Shown here in pieces: positions 6,887 to 55,861 of a stretch of 64,000 nucleotides of DNA. The notes beneath the pieces are model-generated. The model was not told the origin of the DNA, did not search any database, and saw nothing but the letters and a program-made list of their open reading frames with translations. This DNA is from Phycicoccus sp. CSK15P-2. Lineage in GTDB: Bacteria > Actinomycetota > Actinomycetes > Actinomycetales > Dermatophilaceae. The stretch covers positions 62,001-126,000 of the forward strand of contig NZ_JAFDVE010000014.1 in NCBI RefSeq assembly GCF_016888005.1, read 5' to 3'. The position numbers were made by a program, and so were the translations under genes. Position 1 is the stretch's first letter. The number at the start of each line of letters is the position of its first letter.

Positions 6887-7749
6887 GTGTCGCGACCACC
6901 GGCGCCCAGGGGCGCATCGGGTACGAGGGCCAGGACGCCGACAACCCCGACCTCCAGCCGGACAAGCGGCCGAGCGGCGACAACCCGCAGGAGGCCTCGT
7001 GGCTGCGTCGCGCGCGGGCCAACCACCTGGGACTCAAGACGGCGCCGCTCGGCATCGGCCTGCTCGCGCTCGTCGTCTTCCTCTACTACCGCAGCCTCGG
7101 GCTCGGCGACTCCGTCATCCAGCTCTCGTCTCCCCTGCAGTGGGACACCAAGCTGTGGCCGCAGACCGTGCAGCACCTGACGATCGCGTTCTGGTCCACG
7201 GTGCTCGTCGTGCTCGTCGCCATCCCGCTCGGCATCGCGCTCACGCGCCCACCGCTGCGCCGCTTCGGCCCGGCGATCGTCGCGGTCGCGAACTCCGGTC
7301 AGGCGCTGCCAGCGTACGGTCTGCTCATCATCTTCCTGTCGATCATGGGTCAGGGGCTCAACACCGTCGTCGTGGCGCTCGTGGTGTACGCGATCCTGCC
7401 CGTCCTGCGGAACACGATGGTCGGGCTCGACGGTGTCGACCGCAGCGTCATCGAGGCCGGCCGGGGCATGGGGATGACGCGCCGCCAGGTGCTCACCCGC
7501 ATCGAGCTGCCGCTCGCCGTCCCGGTCATCCTCGCCGGTGTGCGGGTCGCGATGATCCTCAACATCGGCATGGCCACCCTGGCCTTCCTCATCGGCGGTG
7601 GCGGCCTCGGCGTGACCATCTCGACCGGCCTGAAGCTCCAGCAGGACCCCGTCCTCATCATCGGTGCCTCGATCGTCGCGATCGTCGCCCTCACCTTCGA
7701 CTGGATCGGTGCGCTCGCCGAGACCTACCTGCGCCCCAAGGGCGTCTGA
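6883..7749 (+). CDS. Osmoprotectant ABC transporter permease, second subunit
   Basis: 288 aa. A hydrophilic N-terminal extension of about 45 residues precedes six predicted membrane segments. The permease loop reads SVIEAGRGMGMTRRQVLTRIELPLAVPVILAGVRV, parallel to the loop in the first permease, so the two are paralogues forming a heterodimeric channel. The start overlaps the ATPase stop by 4 bp (ATGA). A strong inverted repeat downstream probably ends the operon. The separate binding protein on the opposite strand completes the system. Confidence 0.9.
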   Translation: MSVATTGAQGRIGYEGQDADNPDLQPDKRPSGDNPQEASWLRRARANHLGLKTAPLGIGLLALVVFLYYRSLGLGDSVIQLSSPLQWDTKLWPQTVQHLTIAFWSTVLVVLVAIPLGIALTRPPLRRFGPAIVAVANSGQALPAYGLLIIFLSIMGQGLNTVVVALVVYAILPVLRNTMVGLDGVDRSVIEAGRGMGMTRRQVLTRIELPLAVPVILAGVRVAMILNIGMATLAFLIGGGGLGVTISTGLKLQQDPVLIIGASIVAIVALTFDWIGALAETYLRPKGV

Positions 7750-37080: not shown

Positions 37081-38661
37081 TCACTCGGCCGAGACGACCA
37101 CCGAGTGCCACCCGGTGGCACCCTCGGGGAAGGGCTCCTGCCGGTCCTCGGTCTGGGTCCGTCCGTCCTCGTCGGTGGCGCGGGCGCGCACGGTGTGGCG
37201 GCCGGGCTCGATGTCGGCGCGCAGGGACCACTGGCGCCAGTAGTCGATGCCGGCGTCGGGGCCGAGCTCGGCCTCCTGCCAGTCGCCGTCGTCGACCTGC
37301 ACCTCGACCTTCGCGATGCCCCGCTGCTGGGCCCAGGCGACCCCGCCGACGACGACCTCGCCCGCGGTCTGGGTGCTGAGCGGCTTCGGGGTGTCGATCC
37401 GGGCCTGCGTGAAGATCGGGGCGTCGATGGCCCAGTCCCGCTCGGTCCAGTAGGCCTCGTCCTTCGCGTACGTCGTGGCCGTCATCTGCGTCAGCCACTT
37501 CGTCGCACCGACGAACCCGTAGAGGCCGGGCGTGACGAGCCGGGCCGGGAAGCCGTGGACCGCGGGGAGCGGCTCGCCGTTCATCCCGACGGCCACGAGC
37601 GCGTCGCGGTCGTCGGTCAGCGCCTGCACCGGTGTCGAGATCGTCATGCCGTCCGTGGAGCGGCTGAGGATCTGGTCGACGCCGTCGCGCACCCCGACCT
37701 GCTCCAGGAGGGTACGGACCGGCACGCCGATCCAGCGTGCGGCACCGACGTAGGGACCGCCGACCGGGTTGGAGACGCACGTCATCGTGATGTCCTTCTC
37801 GATCATCGGCATCGCGAGGAGCTCGTCGTAGGAGATCGTCAGGGGCGACTCGACGTCCCCGTCGATCGTGAGCTCCCAGGACCCGGCGTCGACGCGCGGG
37901 ATGACGAGGGCGGTGTCGATCCGGTAGAAGGAGTCGTTCGGCGTGCGAAACGAGCTGATCCCGCGGACCGACTCCTCCAGACCCCGCGGCAGCGGCTCGA
38001 GGGTGTTCGTGGCACTCGGGAGGACGACGTCCGACGGTGCGCCGCGGCGGGCCAGCACCTGCCCGACGCCACCCCCGGTCGCGGCGACGGCGCCGAGGCC
38101 CGCCGCGACGGCGAGCACCGTGCGGCGTCCGCTCGTGCCGTCCGTGTGGGCGGTGTGGTCCGGACCGGCGCCGGACGCCGGGTCCGTGGCCGCGTCGCCC
38201 TCGCGGTCCAGCAGACCGTAGACCCACTGCGCGGCGAGGACCCCGACGACGACCGTGACCAGCCCCGGCACGAGGTCGACGGGCTGGGTGGTCGGGCGGG
38301 TCGCCGCGGCGACGATGGCGAGGAAGGCCAGCACCGCGAGGAGCACGACACCGAGGGTCCGGCGCGTGCGGGCCACGACACCGGTGCCGGCGGCGAGCAG
38401 CAGGGTCACGAGGGACACCGAGCCGACGAGGATCGGCTTGTCGGCGGTGCCGAACGTCGAGACGGCCCACTCCTTGACCGGCGTCGGGGTGGCGTCGATG
38501 ACGGTCGAGCCGACCGCGAGGACCGGTGAGGCGTCCGGTGAGACGAGTCCCGCCACGAGATGCCCGAGACCGGCACCGGCGGCGGCGGCGAGCAGGGCGG
38601 TGGCGGCGTACCAGACCCGTCCGGGCCGGTACGCGGCGATGGGGCGCTGGGTCGTGGTCAT
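37081..38661 (-). CDS. Membrane-anchored molybdopterin oxidoreductase, sulfite-oxidase fold
   Basis: 526 aa. Four membrane segments in the first 150 residues are followed by a fifth hydrophobic stretch after an RR pair (SGRRTVLAVAAGLGAVAATGGG). An extracytoplasmic SUOX-fold molybdenum domain with ligand Cys295 (ITMTCVSNPVGG) and a Mo-co dimerisation domain (GVAWAQQRGIAKVEVQVDDGDWQEA) complete it. This resembles a mycobacterial membrane family, with unknown electron acceptor; sulfite or sulfoxides are possible substrates. A SigK-like promoter directly precedes it, ending 7 nt before the ATG, so it belongs to the SigK regulon. Confidence 0.9.
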   Translation of the reverse strand: MTTTQRPIAAYRPGRVWYAATALLAAAAGAGLGHLVAGLVSPDASPVLAVGSTVIDATPTPVKEWAVSTFGTADKPILVGSVSLVTLLLAAGTGVVARTRRTLGVVLLAVLAFLAIVAAATRPTTQPVDLVPGLVTVVVGVLAAQWVYGLLDREGDAATDPASGAGPDHTAHTDGTSGRRTVLAVAAGLGAVAATGGGVGQVLARRGAPSDVVLPSATNTLEPLPRGLEESVRGISSFRTPNDSFYRIDTALVIPRVDAGSWELTIDGDVESPLTISYDELLAMPMIEKDITMTCVSNPVGGPYVGAARWIGVPVRTLLEQVGVRDGVDQILSRSTDGMTISTPVQALTDDRDALVAVGMNGEPLPAVHGFPARLVTPGLYGFVGATKWLTQMTATTYAKDEAYWTERDWAIDAPIFTQARIDTPKPLSTQTAGEVVVGGVAWAQQRGIAKVEVQVDDGDWQEAELGPDAGIDYWRQWSLRADIEPGRHTVRARATDEDGRTQTEDRQEPFPEGATGWHSVVVSAE

Positions 38662-38668
38662 GACAGGC

Positions 38669-38696
38669 GTTCGGAACGGGCGGCCGTCACGGATGG
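38669..38696 (-). promoter_or_regulatory. SigK-type promoter of the molybdoenzyme gene
   Basis: On the minus strand CCATCC (plus 38691-38696) is separated by exactly 16 bp from CCGAAC (plus 38669-38674). The -35 is a perfect match to the reported mycobacterial SigK consensus and the -10 differs in its last base. The ATG follows the -10 by 7 bp, so the transcript should be leaderless. Confidence 0.82.
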
Positions 38697-38781
38697 CGTC
38701 GTCGGGGTACGGCGGTGCACCGGACCATCGTCGGCCGTCCCGGTTCCCGGCGGGGCCGGTCGGTCGCCTACCGTAAGGAAC

Positions 38782-39024
38782 GTGTCACGTGTCCGACGCC
38801 CGCGCTTCCTGCCGTTCATCCTCACCGGGGCGGTCCTCGGCTTCGCCGTCGGGGGCTGGGTCGCGTCGAGCGGCCGGTGGGAGGACACGAGCACGGCCCT
38901 GGCCCAGCAGGCGTACTCGCCCACCGCGGCCGTCGGCTACCTCGGCCTCCTCGGGGCGGCACTGTTCGCCCTGGTCGCCGCTCTCGTGGCGCTCGCGCTC
39001 GACGGCTGGTCGCGCCGGTCCTGA
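38782..39024 (+). CDS. Small two-span membrane protein
   Basis: 80 aa with two hydrophobic segments (FLPFILTGAVLGFAVGGWVA and AVGYLGLLGAALFALVAALVALAL), consistent with a small inner-membrane hairpin protein. Function unknown. Homologues of similar shape are found upstream of purF in many actinobacteria. GTG 38782 follows TACCGT (38769-38774) by seven bases; AAGG is also nearby. purF starts 27 bp downstream, so co-transcription is likely. Confidence 0.75.
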   Translation: MSRVRRPRFLPFILTGAVLGFAVGGWVASSGRWEDTSTALAQQAYSPTAAVGYLGLLGAALFALVAALVALALDGWSRRS

Positions 39025-39051
39025 CCCGGCCCCTGTGGGAGACTGGAGCAC

Positions 39052-40668
39052 GTGCCACGCGGAGACGGACGCCTCAGCCACGACCTCTTCCCCGGCGAGA
39101 GGGGCCCGCAGGACGCCTGCGGGGTCTTCGGTGTCTGGGCCCCCGGCGAGGACGTCGCCAAGCTGACGTACTACGGGCTCTACGCGCTGCAGCACCGCGG
39201 TCAGGAGTCGGCCGGCATCGCCACCTCCGACGGCCAGCGTCTCCTCGTCTACAAGGACATGGGGCTCGTGTCCCAGGTCTTCGACGAGCGTTCGCTCGCC
39301 TCGCTGCGCGGCCACCTCGCCGTCGGGCACTGCCGCTACTCCACGACCGGCGGCTCCACGTGGGAGAACGCCCAGCCGACGCTCGACGGCCACTCCGGCT
39401 CCACCGTGGCGCTGGCCCACAACGGCAACCTCATCAACTCCGCCGAGCTGCGGGACGTCGTCGCGGGCCACCACGTCGACGGCCACCGCGGTGAGCTCGC
39501 CCGCGGCAACACCACCGACACCGCGCTCGTCACGGCGCTGCTGACCTCCGACCCGGACCGCACCGTCGAGGCCGCCGCGCTCGAGGTCCTCCCGATGCTG
39601 CGCGGAGCCTTCTGCTTCGTGTTCATGGACGAGCACACGCTCTACGCCGCGCGGGACCCGCAGGGCATCCGCCCGCTCGTCATCGGCCGTCTCGAGCGGG
39701 GGTGGGTGGTCGCGTCCGAGACCGCGGCCCTGGACATCGTCGGCGCCTCGTTCGTCCGCGAGGTCGAGCCGGGCGAGCTCGTCGCCATCGACGAGGACGG
39801 GCTGCGCTCGCAGCGGTTCGCCGAGGCCTCGCCGAAGGGCTGCGTCTTCGAGTACGTCTACCTCGCCCGGCCGGACACCACGATCGCCGGGCGCATCGTC
39901 CACGAGTCACGGGTCGAGATGGGCCGGGCCCTGGCCCGTGAGCACCCCGTGGACGCCGACCTCGTCATGCCCACCCCCGAGTCGGGGACGCCGGCCGCCA
40001 TCGGCTACGCGCAGGAGTCGGGCATCCCGTTCGGGCACGGGCTCGTCAAGAACTCCTACGTGGGGCGCACCTTCATCGCGCCCTCGCAGACCATCCGCCA
40101 GCTCGGCATCCGGCTCAAGCTCAACCCACTGCGCGAGGTCATCCGCGGCAAGCGGCTCGTCGTCGTCGACGACTCGATCGTGCGGGGCAACACCCAGCGC
40201 GCCCTCGTGCGGATGCTCCGCGAGGCGGGCGCGGCCGAGGTGCACGTGCGGATCTCCTCGCCGCCGGTGCGCTGGCCGTGCTTCTACGGCATCGACTTCG
40301 CGACCCGCGCCGAGCTCATCGCCACCGGCCTCGGGGTCGACGAGGTGTGCAACTCGATCGGCGCCGACTCGCTCGGGTACATCTCCGAGGACGGGATGAT
40401 CGAGGCGTCCGGGCAGCCCCGCGACCGGCTGTGCACGGCGTGCTTCTCGGGGCACTATCCCGTGGCGCTGCCCGAGGACGGCCGGCTCGGCAAGGGGGTC
40501 CTCGAGCTCGAGCTGCCGCTCGAGACCGACGGCGGGCCGGACGGTCGCGTGGTCGGGGAGCGCCACCCCCAGCGACAGGCCCCGTTGGTCGACACGCCGG
40601 TGCTCGACGTCGAGGGCGTCCCCACGTCCGCGGGCGGCGGTGCGCACGAGGCCGTCCTGCGTCCCTGA
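39052..40668 (+). CDS. purF: Amidophosphoribosyltransferase
   Basis: 538 aa. It catalyses the first step of purine synthesis, PRPP plus glutamine to phosphoribosylamine. After a short propeptide-like N terminus the catalytic Cys23 lies in DACGVFGV. The glutaminase domain shows LQHRGQESAGI, GHCRYSTTG and HNGNLIN. The PRPP site is VVVDDSIVRGNTQRALVRML. Cysteines in PCFYG/CTACFSG resemble those coordinating the [4Fe-4S] cluster of the Bacillus-type enzyme. GGAG precedes the GTG. purM, its usual downstream partner in actinobacteria, is absent here; a palindrome-flanked nuclease-like gene follows instead. Confidence 0.97.
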   Translation: MPRGDGRLSHDLFPGERGPQDACGVFGVWAPGEDVAKLTYYGLYALQHRGQESAGIATSDGQRLLVYKDMGLVSQVFDERSLASLRGHLAVGHCRYSTTGGSTWENAQPTLDGHSGSTVALAHNGNLINSAELRDVVAGHHVDGHRGELARGNTTDTALVTALLTSDPDRTVEAAALEVLPMLRGAFCFVFMDEHTLYAARDPQGIRPLVIGRLERGWVVASETAALDIVGASFVREVEPGELVAIDEDGLRSQRFAEASPKGCVFEYVYLARPDTTIAGRIVHESRVEMGRALAREHPVDADLVMPTPESGTPAAIGYAQESGIPFGHGLVKNSYVGRTFIAPSQTIRQLGIRLKLNPLREVIRGKRLVVVDDSIVRGNTQRALVRMLREAGAAEVHVRISSPPVRWPCFYGIDFATRAELIATGLGVDEVCNSIGADSLGYISEDGMIEASGQPRDRLCTACFSGHYPVALPEDGRLGKGVLELELPLETDGGPDGRVVGERHPQRQAPLVDTPVLDVEGVPTSAGGGAHEAVLRP

Positions 40669-40685
40669 GGGCCGGCTGTCCTGCC

Positions 40686-40736
40686 CGGTTCGAGGTGAGA
40701 CGAGACCTTCTGGAGGTCGGGTTTCACCTCGAACCG
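40686..40736. repeat. Palindromic element A1, 3' side of the DUF559 gene
   Basis: Arm 40686-40708 (starts CGGTTCGAGGTGAG) pairs with 40714-40736 (ends TTTCACCTCGAACCG) at 20 of 23 positions around a 5-nt loop. A second copy, A2, in the same orientation lies at 41762-41811, beyond the start of the intervening gene. The DUF559 stop codon (40724-40726) falls inside the right arm. It begins 18 bp after the purF stop and may also end purF transcription. Confidence 0.85.
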
Positions 40737-41671
40737 AGAGCCAGCCGGCTGCGGTAGGCGTCGCAGATCTGGTCGAGGTACGCATCAGGGGTCAGCCGCC
40801 AGCCGATGACCGGGACCCGGAGCACGAGCTCGTCACCCAGGAGCACGGCGTTCTGACGCAAGGCATCGTCGTGTGGTGCGAGGCCCCACGTGTGGCCCGC
40901 GCCGTCGACCTCAACGGCGAGCTTCGCCTCCGGCCACGCCATGTCCAGGTAGGCGCGCCCGTTCGGCAGATGGCGCACCTGCTGGCGCGCCGGTGCGGGC
41001 AGGCCCCGCCGACGGCACGCCGCGACGACATCGAGCTCGCCCAGCGAGTGCGACCCGCCCGCGATGTCGCCGGCCAGGAGCGGGATGAGTGCCCGGCGCG
41101 TGCGGCCACGGACCTCCCGCGCTGCCGCGACCAGCTGCTCGCCCGTGCAGAGGCGTTGCTGTACCGGCATCGCGAGGAGCAGCGCGGCCTGCCGGTCACT
41201 CACCGCCCAGTGCGCCGCGCGCACCGCAGCCACCGCCGGCCGGGTGCGGGGCAGGCCCGCCCGCACGACCTCGTCGCCGCCCCTCCGAGCGACCTTGTGG
41301 ATGGTCACCCCCTCGACCGGGACGACCTCGGTCGTGTGCCTGACGGAGACGTGCACCTGCTCGTCGTCGTAGCCGACCATCCCGGCGTGCTGGAGAGCCG
41401 TCACCCCGTCGACCGCCGTGACGCCGGCGGCGACCTCCCAGACCCCGCGCCAGCGCCGGGCGAGGTCCCCGAGCGGGCCCGTGGTCATGGCCACGGTCTG
41501 GACCCCATGGAGGGCCCACCGTTCGGCGGCGACCTCGCGGCGCACCATCCGGTGGTCGACACCGACCGACCGCAGGAGCGAGCGGGACAGCACGCCGTCG
41601 TGGTCCGACGCCAGGCCCCGGGCGCGACGGCGGCGCTCGGCCACGGACACGGGCGGCGACGGGGTGCGCAT
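40724..41671 (-). CDS. AbiEi-like HTH plus DUF559 nuclease-like protein, palindrome-flanked
   Basis: 315 aa. The N-terminal AbiEi-type HTH region is HDGVLSRSLLRSVGVDHRMVRREVAAERWALHGV (residues ~24-57). The C-terminal DUF559 region resembles Vsr/PD-(D/E)XK nucleases, with Glu212, Asp243, Glu254, Asp256 and His260 (AVEVDGAGH). The middle region is typical of the AbiEi antitoxin-like family. No AbiEii toxin partner is adjacent. ATG 41671 gives a normal N terminus; the frame is open further, into palindrome A2. It is the only gene between two copies of palindrome family A. The function is unknown; a nuclease acting on, or mobilising, the palindromes is a hypothesis. Confidence 0.78.
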   Translation of the reverse strand: MRTPSPPVSVAERRRRARGLASDHDGVLSRSLLRSVGVDHRMVRREVAAERWALHGVQTVAMTTGPLGDLARRWRGVWEVAAGVTAVDGVTALQHAGMVGYDDEQVHVSVRHTTEVVPVEGVTIHKVARRGGDEVVRAGLPRTRPAVAAVRAAHWAVSDRQAALLLAMPVQQRLCTGEQLVAAAREVRGRTRRALIPLLAGDIAGGSHSLGELDVVAACRRRGLPAPARQQVRHLPNGRAYLDMAWPEAKLAVEVDGAGHTWGLAPHDDALRQNAVLLGDELVLRVPVIGWRLTPDAYLDQICDAYRSRLALGSR

Positions 41672-41761
41672 CACCTCACGATCGGTGCGCGGAGTGGGTC
41701 GTCGACATCTCGGCGTGCTCCGCTGTGGACGGTCGGTCGGGACAGGCGGCCTGTGGACTGC

Positions 41762-41811
41762 CGGTTCGAGGTGAGACGAGACCGTCACGAGGTCGGTTTT
41801 CACCTCGACCC
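41762..41811. repeat. Palindromic element A2, 5' side of the DUF559 gene
   Basis: Arms CGGTTCGAGGTGAGACGAGA continuing to 41783, and 41791-41811 (ends TTTCACCTCGACCC). It shares the whole left arm with A1 and nearly all of the right arm, while the loop differs (GTCACGA against TCTGG). It has the same orientation as A1, 1.08 kb away. It lies between the DUF559 start and the PH-domain gene stop (41840). Confidence 0.85.
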
Positions 41812-41839
41812 ACGCGGAGGCAGGGCTCGCGCAGCCGCG

Positions 41840-42847
41840 TCAGCGGGTGCGGTCGACCCAGTCGCGCGGCGGGTAGAGCGGGATCTCGCGCACCTCGTCG
41901 CCACCGTCGGCCGCCCAGTCGTGCTCGGCCGCCGGCTCGGACCACCGGCGGAAGGGGTCGGCATCCTGGGTGTGCGGGGTGTCGGCGGCGGAGCGCTGCG
42001 CCTGCCACGCCTCGACGTCCTCGGCGCGGACGACCGGGATCTCGCCGGTGTCGCCGAGCCGGGCCGGCCCGCCGCGGTTCGAGCTGCGGTACCACGTCTC
42101 GGGCTGGGTCCGCGGGGGCGGTGGGTGCCCGGCCGGTGAGATGTCGACTCCTCCGGTGCCGGGGTCGCTCGGCTGCGGACCGCCGCCGGACCCTCCGCCG
42201 CGGGGCCCGTCGTCCTCGCCGTCGTCACCCCGGCGCTGGCGCCGGGAGAGCAGGGGCCAGCTGCGACCGGTGCGGGGCGGCTTCGTGCGCGGCCGCTCCC
42301 CGAAGATCTCGGAGTTGAGCGCGGCGTTGACCTCGTCCGGGTCGGGGATGTAGACGAGCTCGCGGATGGCCTGCTTCTGGCCGGCGCTCTCGATGACGAT
42401 CGTCCCGTAGTTCCAGATCTCTCCGCCGAGCGAGCGGTGGTAGGTCATGTCGGTCACCTTGGTCAGCCGCATCATCGGCACCTTGCGGGTGAAGATCCCC
42501 TCGTGCTTGAGGATGCGCTTGTTCGTCGCGACGAACCACGTGTACTGGCGCTCGAGCTCCTTCCAGCCGAGCCGTCCCAGCGCGACGAGGAAGCCGAGGA
42601 ACACGAGGTCGATGAGCCGGGGGGCGGCCTTGACGTCGACGACGAGCCACCACCAGAGCCATCCGGTGAGCACCGGCCACAGGGCGTCGCGGGCCAGGAC
42701 CAGCGGGCTCTGCCGGGTGCGGATGACGATGCGCTCGCCCTCGGCGAGCTGCCGGACCAGGCTGTGGCGCACCCGGTACGGCATGACCGAGAGGTCGTGT
42801 TCGACGGTCTCCGGGGTTCCGTCCGTGACGGCGTGAACCCGCGCCAC
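41840..42847 (-). CDS. Bacterial PH-domain membrane protein
   Basis: 335 aa. Two hydrophobic segments (ALWPVLTGWLWWWLVVDV and LIDLVFLGFLVALGRLGW) precede a bPH_2-type domain (TWFVATNKRILKHEGIFTRKVPMMRLTKVTDMTYHRSLGGEIWNYGTIVIESAG). The C-terminal 150 residues are Pro/Gly/Asp-rich and disordered. Function unknown; a membrane scaffold is likely. The GTG start is 3 bp after a tiny membrane protein gene on the same strand, so the two form an operon. ATG 42784 is an alternative start. Confidence 0.8.
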   Translation of the reverse strand: MARVHAVTDGTPETVEHDLSVMPYRVRHSLVRQLAEGERIVIRTRQSPLVLARDALWPVLTGWLWWWLVVDVKAAPRLIDLVFLGFLVALGRLGWKELERQYTWFVATNKRILKHEGIFTRKVPMMRLTKVTDMTYHRSLGGEIWNYGTIVIESAGQKQAIRELVYIPDPDEVNAALNSEIFGERPRTKPPRTGRSWPLLSRRQRRGDDGEDDGPRGGGSGGGPQPSDPGTGGVDISPAGHPPPPRTQPETWYRSSNRGGPARLGDTGEIPVVRAEDVEAWQAQRSAADTPHTQDADPFRRWSEPAAEHDWAADGGDEVREIPLYPPRDWVDRTR

Positions 42848-42850
42848 GGG

Positions 42851-43018
42851 TCAGCCCCGCAGCAGGCTGTCGAAGAACTCCGCGATGTTGCGGACCCCGT
42901 TGGAGAGGACGTCCCAGGCCGAGCCGAAGATGTCGGCGGCGGACTGCGGGGAGGTGAGGATGGCGTAGAGGAGGAAGACCACGACGAGCCACATCACGAT
43001 CTTCTTGACCGGGGGCAT
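42851..43018 (-). CDS. Very small single-span membrane protein
   Basis: 55 aa: a short basic N terminus (MPPVKKI), one membrane segment (VMWLVVVFLLYAIL), then an amphipathic stretch (AADIFGSAWDVLSNGVRNIAEFFDSLLRG). A strong GGAGG lies at proper distance upstream of ATG 43018. It is followed after 3 bp by the PH-domain gene. Small partners of this type occur next to PH-domain genes in other actinobacteria, but the function is unknown. Confidence 0.72.
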   Translation of the reverse strand: MPPVKKIVMWLVVVFLLYAILTSPQSAADIFGSAWDVLSNGVRNIAEFFDSLLRG

Positions 43019-43153
43019 GCTGAACCGTCCTCCTGCAGCGGGGCGCACCCTGTGCACGCCTCGAGCACCGATCGTCGCAGAAGTGACCTGTGTGACGGAT
43101 GAGGCTCGATGTCCCGGCGTGTCGGCCGAACGGCCGATGTGCCCGGGCCGAGA

Positions 43154-43795
43154 CTACTGTGCGACGCCGTACAGACGGTCCCCCGCGTCGCCCAGACCCG
43201 GGACGATGTAGCCGACGTCGTTGAGCCGTTCGTCGATGGCTCCGGTCACGAGCGTCACCGGGCACTCGATCCCGGCCACCGACGTCTCGAGGTTGGCGAT
43301 GCCCTCGGGGGCGGACAGCAGGCACACGGCGGTGATGTCGTCGGCGCCGCGGTCGACGAGGTAATGGATGGCGTCCGCCATCGAGCCGCCGGTCGCGAGC
43401 ATGGGGTCGAGGACGTAGACCTGGCGCCCGGACAGGTCGTCCGGCAGCCGGTTGGCGTACGTCATGGGCTCGAGGGTCTCCTCGTCGCGCTGCATCCCGA
43501 GGAAACCGACCTCGGCGCTCGGCAGCAGCCGGACCATCCCCTCGAGCATCCCGAGGCCGGCCCGCAAGATGGGGACGACGAGCGGCTTGGGGTTGGACAG
43601 CTTGATGCCGGTCGTGGGTGCGACCGGGGTGCGGATCTCGAACGGCTCGACCCGCACGTCGCGGGTGGCCTCGTAGGCGAGGAGGGTCATCAGCTCCTCG
43701 GCGAGCCGCCGGAACGTGGGGGAGTCGGTGCGCTCGTCCCGGAGGTAGGTCAGCTTGTGGGCGATGAGCCGGTGGTCCGGGTTGATCACGCGCAT
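43154..43795 (-). CDS. upp: Uracil phosphoribosyltransferase
   Basis: 213 aa. A salvage enzyme making UMP from uracil and PRPP. The PRPP-binding loop is [13 protein letters not shown], and the uracil-binding C-terminal segment [16 protein letters not shown] is intact. The ATG is preceded six bases earlier by TAAGTT on the minus strand and has no Shine-Dalgarno sequence. It is divergent from tadA with only 16 bp between start codons. Confidence 0.97.
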
Positions 43796-43811
43796 GGGTG
43801 AAACTTAGCGC
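43796..43811. promoter_or_regulatory. Overlapping opposite -10 elements, upp / tadA
   Basis: The whole gap between divergent start codons is 16 bp. The minus-strand -10 TAAGTT (plus 43802-43807) is 6 nt from the upp ATG. The plus-strand GAAACT (43800-43805) is 6 nt from the tadA GTG. The two hexamers overlap, so both genes appear to fire leaderless transcripts from one shared melted region. Confidence 0.65.
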
Positions 43812-44282
43812 GTGCCCCTTCCCCCCGATCCGCGCGACGTCGAGCGGATGCGCCGTGCCCTGGCGCTCGCCGACCGCGCCGCTGCGGCGGGGGACGTCCC
43901 CGTCGGGGCGGTCGTCGTCGGGCCGGACGGGACCGTCCTCGGCGAGGGGTGGAACGTCCGCGAGGCCCAGGGGGACCCGACCGGGCACGCCGAGGTCGTG
44001 GCGCTGCGAGCGGCCGCTGCGGCGTCCGGCTCGTGGCGGCTCGAGGGATGCGACCTCGTCGTGACGATGGAGCCCTGCCCGATGTGTGCCGGCGCCCTCG
44101 TCCTGGCTCGGGTCGCCCGGGTCGTCCTCGGCGCCTGGGACCCCAAGCTCGGGGCCTGCGGGTCGGTGTGGGACGTCCCGCGCGACCGTCGGGTGACGCA
44201 CCGCGTGGAGGTCGTCGGCGGGGTGCTCGAGGACGAGTGCGGCGAGGTCGTGCGCCGCTTCTTCGCCGGCCACCGGGGCTGA
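43812..44282 (+). CDS. tadA: tRNA-specific adenosine deaminase
   Basis: 156 aa of the cytidine-deaminase fold. Zinc and catalytic residues lie in TGHAEVVAL (His59, Glu61) and EPCPMCAGAL (Cys89, Cys92). It converts A34 to inosine in tRNA-Arg(ACG), an essential step. The GTG start has no Shine-Dalgarno sequence and is 16 bp from the upp start. tRNA-Ser(CGA) follows 80 bp downstream on the same strand, a common actinobacterial neighbour. Confidence 0.96.
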   Translation: MPLPPDPRDVERMRRALALADRAAAAGDVPVGAVVVGPDGTVLGEGWNVREAQGDPTGHAEVVALRAAAAASGSWRLEGCDLVVTMEPCPMCAGALVLARVARVVLGAWDPKLGACGSVWDVPRDRRVTHRVEVVGGVLEDECGEVVRRFFAGHRG

Positions 44283-44362
44283 CCTGCCGGGCCGAGGGCG
44301 GCCCGCCGCCCACCCCCGTCCCGATTTCGGGCGCGGCGACGGCCTCGGGTACCCTCTCCGGC

Positions 44363-44452
44363 GGTGGCGTGTCCGAGCGGCCTAAGGAGCACGCCTCGAA
44401 AGCGTGTGAGGGTTCACGCCCTCCGTGGGTTCAAATCCCACCGCCACCGCCA
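44363..44452 (+). tRNA. tRNA-Ser(CGA)
   Basis: The acceptor stem GGTGGCG (44363-44369) pairs with CGCCACC (44442-44448). The anticodon stem CACGC/GCGTG encloses loop CTCGAAA with anticodon CGA. A long variable arm (GTGAGGGTTCACGCCCTCC region) marks it as class II, as for Ser. The 3' CCA is encoded (44450-44452). TACCCT at 44350-44355 is a suitable -10. Confidence 0.97.
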
Positions 44453-44489
44453 ACCGAAAACGCCCCGCGGCAGCGGGGCGTTTTCGGTT
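44452..44489. terminator. Terminator after tRNA-Ser(CGA), bidirectional
   Basis: AACCGAAAACGCCCCG (44452-44467) and CGGGGCGTTTTCGGTT (44474-44489) pair perfectly over 16 bp with a 6-nt loop. T-rich sequence within the right arm and its mirror on the other strand allow termination both of the tRNA and of the convergent LytR_C gene (stop at 44514). Confidence 0.92.
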
Positions 44490-44513
44490 CTCGGGTGGCG
44501 GTGGATGCTGGTC

Positions 44514-45059
44514 TCAGCCCTCCTCCGTCGGGGGCGGGCAGGTCGGCAGGCCCGACGGTGTGGCGGCGGGGGCAAGGTTCTTGAACTTCGTGCCGACGGC
44601 CACGGCGACCCCGTTGCCCTTGCGGTCGACCGCCACGAGCTCCGTGCCCTCGGGCATGACGGTCATGACGAGCTTCGCCTGCGCCTCGCCCGCCGGCCCG
44701 TGGCGGACCTCCGCGACGGCGGGCGCCTTCCCGTCGCGGGGGTCGTTGGCGATCTTGCCGATGGCGAAGCCGCGGCCCTCGATGGCCTTGGCCGTGGACG
44801 CCGCGAGCCCGTTGCGCTTCGTCGAGTTGAAGACGTCGACGGTGACGTCCTCGGGCAGGAGGACGTCAGGGTCGAACGGCTGGCACGTGGGGGCGGCCAC
44901 GCGGGAGTCCCGGCGCTGCTCGTCGGCCTGGTAGTAGGAGAGCCCGTACCAGAACGCGAAGAACAGACCGAGAAGCACGACCCCGATCGTGATGAGGGCC
45001 CGACGGCGTCGCTGGCGCGCGGCCACCGACCGTGGTGACTCCGTCGTGTACTCGCTCAT
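44514..45059 (-). CDS. LytR C-terminal-domain membrane protein
   Basis: 181 aa. A basic N terminus and one membrane segment (ALITIGVVLLGLFFAFWYGL) are followed by an extracytoplasmic LytR_C domain: VTVDVFNSTKRNGLAASTAKAIEGRGFAIGKIANDP. This domain occurs alone in actinobacterial cell-envelope proteins and is linked to wall-polymer assembly. It lies 7 bp behind the small gene at 45067-45357 and should be co-transcribed with it. Its substrate is unknown. Confidence 0.86.
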   Translation of the reverse strand: MSEYTTESPRSVAARQRRRRALITIGVVLLGLFFAFWYGLSYYQADEQRRDSRVAAPTCQPFDPDVLLPEDVTVDVFNSTKRNGLAASTAKAIEGRGFAIGKIANDPRDGKAPAVAEVRHGPAGEAQAKLVMTVMPEGTELVAVDRKGNGVAVAVGTKFKNLAPAATPSGLPTCPPPTEEG

Positions 45060-55793: not shown

Positions 55794-55861
55794 CCGGACG
55801 AGGATGCGCGACACGCGGACCAGCGGCGCCGCGCATCCGCGTGTCGCGCACCCTCGTCCGG
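55794..55861. repeat. 26-bp-arm near-perfect palindrome
   Basis: The arm at 55794-55819 (starts CCGGACGAGGATGCGCGACA) pairs at 25 of 26 positions with 55836-55861. The 16-nt loop contains the small palindrome GCGGCGCCGC. It lies 12 bp after the 347-aa gene and 15 bp before the tRNA terminator. A normal terminator is separately present, so this element is something else. Confidence 0.85.

Follow-up and report, generated by a model that had tools for sequence, protein, structure and literature searches.

A gene directly behind purF in Phycicoccus sp. CSK15P-2, whose product is predicted from its modelled fold to join an AbiEi-type DNA-binding half to a Vsr/EDxHD-type nuclease half, is enclosed by two palindromes of one sequence type. 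Computation over related genomes showed that most loci of this gene family carry matched flanking palindromes, that cognate copies of the palindromes are dispersed through the genomes and stand mostly between genes, and that palindromes and cassette are present or absent at orthologous sites. We consider it probable that a palindrome-spreading system, one which resembles the REPtron and is run by an unrelated protein, has its founder unit at this locus. The window referred to below is the whole stretch of DNA that was analysed (64,000 nucleotides). Features of the purF site are listed in Table 1.

Table 1. Features at the purF site, with positions in the window.
Feature	Position	Strand	Remarks
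purF	39052..40668	+	host gene left of the insertion site; named by eye and in the preliminary description
Palindrome A1	40686..40736	+	core of 43 bp at 40690-40732; behind purF, overlapping the nuclease gene at its 3' end
Nuclease gene, 315 aa	40724..41671	-	AbiEi-like half and Vsr-like nuclease half (predicted); start at ATG 41671 suggested by homologues
Vsr/EDxHD-like nuclease half, residues 207-311	40739..41053	-	putative; fold matches 3hrl, 3r3p, 1cw0
AbiEi-like half, residues 8-204	41060..41650	-	putative; 6y8q, Foldseek and PADLOC matches
T113 codon	41333..41335	-	column most informative on palindrome type
Palindrome A2	41762..41811	+	core of 43 bp at 41766-41808; oriented like A1; on the upstream side of the nuclease gene
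PH-like gene	41840..42847	-	host gene right of the insertion site; convergent with purF; named by eye

The palindrome-flanked gene behind purF

The preliminary description of this DNA reported two palindromes in the same orientation with shared arms, and the pair proved to be real. Among the direct pairs listed for 38000-45000, that of A1 and A2, aligned over 40685-40735 and 41761-41811, is the longest, at 51 nt with 90% identity. The 21-nt left arm, searched with up to three mismatches, has three matches in the window, namely both left arms and, on the other strand, the right arm of A1; none was expected by chance in 100 shuffles. Chance repetition is ruled out by the 90% identity, by the shuffles and by the controls of the matched-flank test given below. 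Both palindromes follow one 43-bp plan, TCGAGGTGA-n5-GACC-n7-GGTC-n5-TCACCTCGA. The differing loops that had been pointed out correspond to the n7 centre of this plan, which also varies among the copies in relatives. As DNA, A1 forms a hairpin of -20.5 kcal/mol (z -6.7, + strand); that of A2 is weaker (-11.8 kcal/mol, z -2.3). A search of Rfam at the gathering threshold returned the SRP RNA and one tRNA only.

The stop codon of the nuclease gene (40724-40726), correctly placed inside A1 in the preliminary description, is the TGA of the conserved A1 arm. The frame was also said to open into A2. It is indeed open from a GTG at 41803 within A2; however, homologues point to ATG 41671 as the start, some 90 bp away from A2, and the upstream extension was not accepted as belonging to the gene. 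Of 68 matched loci, 45 have a frame that stays open as far as the upstream palindrome and 23 have their stop within the downstream one; therefore neither feature defines the unit.

An AlphaFold2 model of the product was built from 16 sequences (mean pLDDT 88). Residues 8-204 matched the AbiEi antitoxin 6y8q (Z 12.6, rmsd 4.0, 185 aligned; Foldseek E 6.7e-5), and AbiEi models of PADLOC matched the window protein (E 7.5e-5) and 14 of the 16 aligned proteins. The fold of residues 207-311 was matched by 3hrl (Z 9.6), by I-Bth0305I (3r3p, Z 9.4) and by Vsr (1cw0), the last with a Z of 7.9, which falls in the range that the comparison tool calls common; Foldseek gave weak matches only for this half (AbaSI, E 0.036). 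Six residues (E212, D243, E254, D256, H260, and D269) are invariant in the 16 sequences, and E212, D243, H260, and D269 are presumably the catalytic residues of the Vsr/EDxHD type. The gene had been named for DUF559, a name not borne out for the window protein, which matched nothing in Pfam or NCBIfam at E <= 1 and whose nuclease half was recognised by fold. DUF559 (PF04480) was weakly matched by 2 of the 16 aligned proteins (best E 0.0033), and a family member of the same genome, C43, scored above the PF04480 cut-off in the genome search. A single NCBIfam match among the 16 proteins, to one member, was judged spurious.

Comparison of the nuclease gene with three purF-site relatives gave dN of 0.17-0.24 and dS of 0.75-0.87, and the gene is therefore under constraint. 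Members of the nuclease family were found in 135 of the 186 genomes of the taxonomic family, patchily distributed over many sites with 1-7 copies each, and in 113 of 394 genomes sampled from the class. Our analysis suggests a role for this large family of poorly annotated actinobacterial genes.

The preliminary description proposed a comparison of close relatives, to see whether gene and repeats are present or absent behind purF as a block. The cassette was found directly behind purF in 5 of the 12 genomes of the genus. The site is empty in another five, where the matches to purF and to the convergent gene end 13-52 nt apart with no such palindrome; in two (G153 and G156) it could not be judged. 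The distances left in the window, 17 bp from the purF stop to A1 and 28 bp from A2 to the stop of the PH-like gene, are of the size that insertion into so short a spacer should leave. Presence and absence were confirmed, with some features that had not been foreseen. The gene at the purF site of G157 (L115:4341-5458) is inverted, contains an in-frame TGA and is flanked by TCGAGGTAT-type palindromes; its nearest relatives are the other purF-site genes. A permease-like gene (named by eye) lies between the cassette and the PH-like gene in four of the five occupied genomes (L112-L115) and is absent from the window and from the empty sites; a single clean block step is therefore not proven.

Matched flanks and dispersed copies

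Palindromes on both sides of the gene were seen by eye in 10 of the first 16 homologue loci; they varied between loci and were alike within a locus. For an automated test, 86 loci were fetched. Removal of 15 duplicates left 71 distinct genes, five of which had less than 300 bp on one side, so that 66 were testable. A palindrome was found upstream in 52 of these, downstream in 52 and on both sides in 46, and the palindromes of the two sides were matched in sequence in 43. The same test found no pair at 36 other ORFs of the loci or at 881 random placements, and when flanks were exchanged between loci the median similarity was 9, compared with 34 for a gene's own flanks. No matched pair was found at the automated cut-offs in 23 of the 66 loci. 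The window is among these; its pair fails the strict test because A2 is a weak hairpin.

Loci from other taxonomic families of the class passed the matched-flank test in 16 of 25 cases, the control ORFs and placements being those of the 66-locus set. They comprise 13 of 15 loci in one family and 3 of 3 in a second (16/18 together), with none of seven passing over four more; one of these seven, L270, passes the looser cut of the palindrome-protein correlation analysis described below. The palindromes in the other families differ strongly, for example GACGTCATACG..CGTATGACGTC or CGTCCGAAG..CTTCGGACG. At one locus (L022:5679-5945 and 7041-7355), about five palindromes stand in tandem array on each side of a single family gene, 66-74 bp apart.

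The preliminary description treated repeats and gene as one compact unit. They do belong together, but the repeats are dispersed genome-wide and are not private to the cassette. Palindromes of the TCGAGGTGA type were found in 35 of the 186 genomes (0 for the backward-pattern control). The highest numbers were 103 copies in G039, 51 in G171 and 48 in G158; G157, G160, G161, and G177 have 24-26, and the genome of the window has six. The CGTGTGTGA type occurs in nine of the 186 genomes with 4-33 copies, all of them in this genus (9 of its 12 genomes), and the TTCGATGTA type in 15 of the 186.

Genomic context was analysed in 40 regions of G158 and G157 holding 66 TCGAGGTGA copies, with genes defined by a simple GC3 rule. 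The set covers 45 of the 48 copies of G158, the other three being at the cassette, and 21 of the 24 copies of G157. Of the 66 copies, 55 are intergenic; random placement gave 1378 of 7290. The neighbouring genes are convergent for 22 of the 55 and divergent for three. Tandem pairs 63-64 bp apart were common, and several copies follow a predicted stop codon at a distance of no more than about 25 bp. Beyond the 43-bp core, conservation among the 66 copies continues for about 4 bp in each direction.

Orthologous sites were compared for six of the 10 prepared sites. At site L168 a TCGAGGTGA palindrome is present in G158, and eight genomes have no comparable element; an unrelated palindrome family (GAGACCCCGGAAC..GGGGTCTC; L207, L208) occupies the site in both G157 and G161, and G160 has unrelated extra sequence. 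Behind a helicase-like gene (named by eye), two TCGAGGTGA palindromes were found in G158 and one in G160, the palindromes of G154 and G161 are of the CGTGTGTGA subtype present on the flanks of the nuclease of these genomes, G157 has a decayed palindrome, G159 another hairpin and G163 none. No target-site duplication was seen at the compared sites, where the spacers of the relatives are too diverged to show one.

The palindrome type mostly follows the nuclease that a genome carries, the exceptions being G157, G162, G173, and G046. Within the genus, the five genomes with a purF-site gene have 6-48 TCGAGGTGA copies and six others have none; G153 has one match, which is not a hairpin. Copies of the CGTGTGTGA type were found in all eight genus genomes whose nuclease has flanking palindromes of the GTGTGTGA or GTGGGTGA kind, counting G000, in which the downstream flank is cut by the contig end, and in one of the four others. 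G158 has a single gene flanked by the TCGAGGTGA type despite its 48 copies. G157 has 24 such copies, and its interrupted purF-site gene has flanks of another type, as described above; when this genome is counted as one without a cognate gene, TCGAGGTGA copies are present in 4/4 genomes with a cognate and in 1/8 without. No nuclease with flanks of the corresponding type was detected in G162 (11 CGTGTGTGA copies) or G173 (16 TCGAGGTGA copies), and no nuclease family member was detected at E 1e-20 in G046 (4 copies).

Protein variation and palindrome sequence

The palindrome sequence co-diversifies with the AbiEi-like half of the protein and, once this half is accounted for, not with the nuclease half. 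The correlation was computed only over the 68 loci passing as matched. Palindrome similarity followed whole-protein similarity with r 0.59. For the AbiEi-like half r was 0.61, and 0.47 after removal of the nuclease half (0/2000 permutations); for the nuclease half it was 0.44, and 0.03 after removal of the AbiEi-like half (478/2000 permutations). This half-by-half result could be partly due to the larger variation of the AbiEi-like half. Palindrome type labels placed on the protein tree required 22 changes, compared with a mean of 46.8 for shuffled labels.

The alignment column of T113 holds T in 22 and R in 5 of the 27 proteins with TCGAG or TGGAG arms. N is found in 8 of the 10 proteins whose arms are TCGAT-like and in 7 of the 8 whose arms are GTGTGTGA-like, and G in all 10 with ACGTCAT arms. 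N together with TCGAT occurs on separate branches of the tree, with two independent pairs on well-supported branches and five on all branches. Residue 113 may be tied to the palindrome type; we regard this pattern in the alignment as a lead, not as proof.

Within the TCGAGGTGA type, 42 copies of G158 show hardly any variation in the inner GACC and GGTC; the search pattern imposed the outer 9 bp and not these inner motifs. The left spacer and the centre vary without pairing, and maintenance of the hairpin by covariation was rejected, these parts pairing no better than in shuffles. Invariant inner motifs together with unpaired variable spacers point to two inverted half-sites rather than a hairpin that is kept. 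For the CGTGTGTGA type, covariation within subtypes was weak in a set of 48 distinct 42-nt copies from four genomes (18/27, shuffle mean 12.1; second pair 15/19, shuffle mean 8.9). The hairpin of this type may have a structural role.

Proposed spreading of the palindromes and comparison with known systems

In the mechanism that we propose, binding, cutting and dispersal would all be the work of the protein. Probably as a dimer, it would read the two inverted half-sites of the palindrome through its AbiEi-like half, and the Vsr-like half would nick or cut at the palindrome. Breakage and repair, or capture of a strand, might then place palindromes at new sites, and the new copies would survive mainly between genes. 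Several observations stand against the founder-unit reading. Nuclease activity by itself leaves it unexplained how a palindrome gets to a site that offers no homology. Copies are present without a detected cognate nuclease in the four exceptional genomes named above, and 23 of the 66 family loci, together with all seven loci of four other taxonomic families, have no matched pair at the automated cut-offs.

A much smaller share of the probability goes to a homing cassette that leaves scars. Palindrome, gene and palindrome would move together by means of the nuclease, perhaps into existing palindromes, and recombination between the direct palindromes would later remove the gene and leave one palindrome behind. 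Solo LTRs arise by comparable repeat recombination. The direct orientation of A1 and A2, the presence or absence of the cassette at purF with one inversion, the likeness of the nuclease half to a homing endonuclease domain and the patchy occurrence of one to seven family members per genome at many places, in 135 of 186 genomes, agree with such a cassette. It fits poorly with G158, where 48 copies are accompanied by one gene so flanked, and the common tandem copies 63-64 bp apart would need more than one loss.

Slightly less probable, in our judgement, is an autoregulated nuclease, with the palindromes at the gene serving as operators, the other copies as regulon or decoy sites, and no spreading driven by the protein. 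The AbiEi-like fold and the co-diversification of the palindrome with this half of the protein speak for it. So does the account in the accessible text of PMC3985639, where AbiEi binds 11-bp inverted repeats, 27 bp apart, in its own promoter. Regulation accounts poorly for the second palindrome behind the gene in most loci, for the 22 convergent among 55 intergenic copies with only three in the divergent position, where shared promoters would be, or for the differences in copies between orthologous sites of relatives. The excess of copies and their tandem, downstream and convergent positions weigh against both the homing cassette and autoregulation.

It is very improbable that the palindromes have nothing to do with the protein and are terminators of transcription, or structures at mRNA ends, of the ordinary kind: several copies do lie close behind a predicted stop and A1 folds well, but intrinsic terminators were rejected, with no terminator-like site in 40500-42100 and TTTT absent from the 12 nt before and after each of the 66 TCGAGGTGA copies, and flank matching and the link to the protein would be left unexplained.

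With the locus read as a founder unit, its organisation can be set beside that of the REPtron. In the accessible text of the sources, a REPtron is a TnpA-REP (RAYT) gene flanked by REP palindromes, which are dispersed intergenically, each gene having its own family (PMC6006769, PMC8266576, PMC3733652). The window-type gene is likewise flanked by palindromes with dispersed intergenic copies and a gene-specific family. It differs in the protein, which is AbiEi-like and Vsr-like by predicted fold and not an HUH Y1 transposase, and in the palindrome, which is about 51 bp long with two bipartite half-sites. No GTAG foot was seen in the composition of the 12 nt on either side of the 66 copies of the TCGAGGTGA type, the one type examined. 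A RAYT elsewhere in the genome was considered and rejected, since the Y1/RAYT transposase domain (PF01797) was found in none of 12 genomes with these palindromes; the control matched in 5 of 14. With an unrelated protein, no Y1 transposase found in the 12 genomes and no GTAG foot in the type examined, the system is not a REPtron by membership, and we call it a new kind that works like one.

To our knowledge, REP systems with a dedicated gene use a Y1 transposase. A literature search whose coverage was without most subscription papers and bioRxiv found no description of a system of the present kind. In the accessible text of PMC6006769, subclass 1.1 is the only part of the TnpA-Y1 superfamily given for the Actinobacteridae. 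The palindrome families described here, with their REP-like genomic habit, accompany an unrelated protein, and the group in which they occur is reported to be without TnpA-REP. With slightly less assurance than for the founder unit itself, we lean towards a second, independent REP-spreading system in Actinobacteria, in which an AbiEi-Vsr fusion would read duplex half-sites, drive intergenic dispersal and be retargeted through its AbiEi-like half, each nuclease lineage seeding its own repeat family. Judging by the association of gene and palindrome, a small repeat appears to spread through genomes here in a manner not previously described. The gene, its readable target and the natural variation in specificity make both the spread of REP-like repeats and changes of specificity directly testable.

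The two halves of the protein also relate the locus to other systems. Residues 8-204 share the fold of AbiEi from AbiE type IV toxin-antitoxin systems, and the inverted-repeat geometry of the AbiEi target, as far as it is given in the accessible text of PMC3985639, is similar to that of the palindrome half-sites. Unlike AbiEi, the protein here carries a nuclease domain. No gene for an AbiEii nucleotidyltransferase toxin was found in the window cassette, where the nuclease gene is alone between A1 and A2, with purF and the PH-like gene as its nearest neighbours. With the Vsr/EDxHD endonucleases (Vsr, I-Bth0305I, NGO0050) the protein shares the C-terminal fold and the invariant acidic and histidine residues. 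It differs from them in the joined AbiEi-like half and the tie to flanking palindromes, and nothing seen here indicates mismatch repair or intron homing. The CGTC-tagged REPs are dispersed palindromes as well, with no Y1 transposase known in the accessible text of PMC3733652; there they are said to lack a dedicated transposase, whereas the palindromes described here have a cognate gene.

A further palindrome of the window (55794-55861) resembles one in the same genome (L002:1816-1879, contig C29), which is situated directly behind another gene with a DUF559 domain. Upstream of the gene (L002:640-760), G and C occur in long tracts that look like assembly noise, and similar tracts are found on other contigs of this genome, for example L064. 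The two palindromes align with a local score of 39 over about 71 nt and may be a second such pair.
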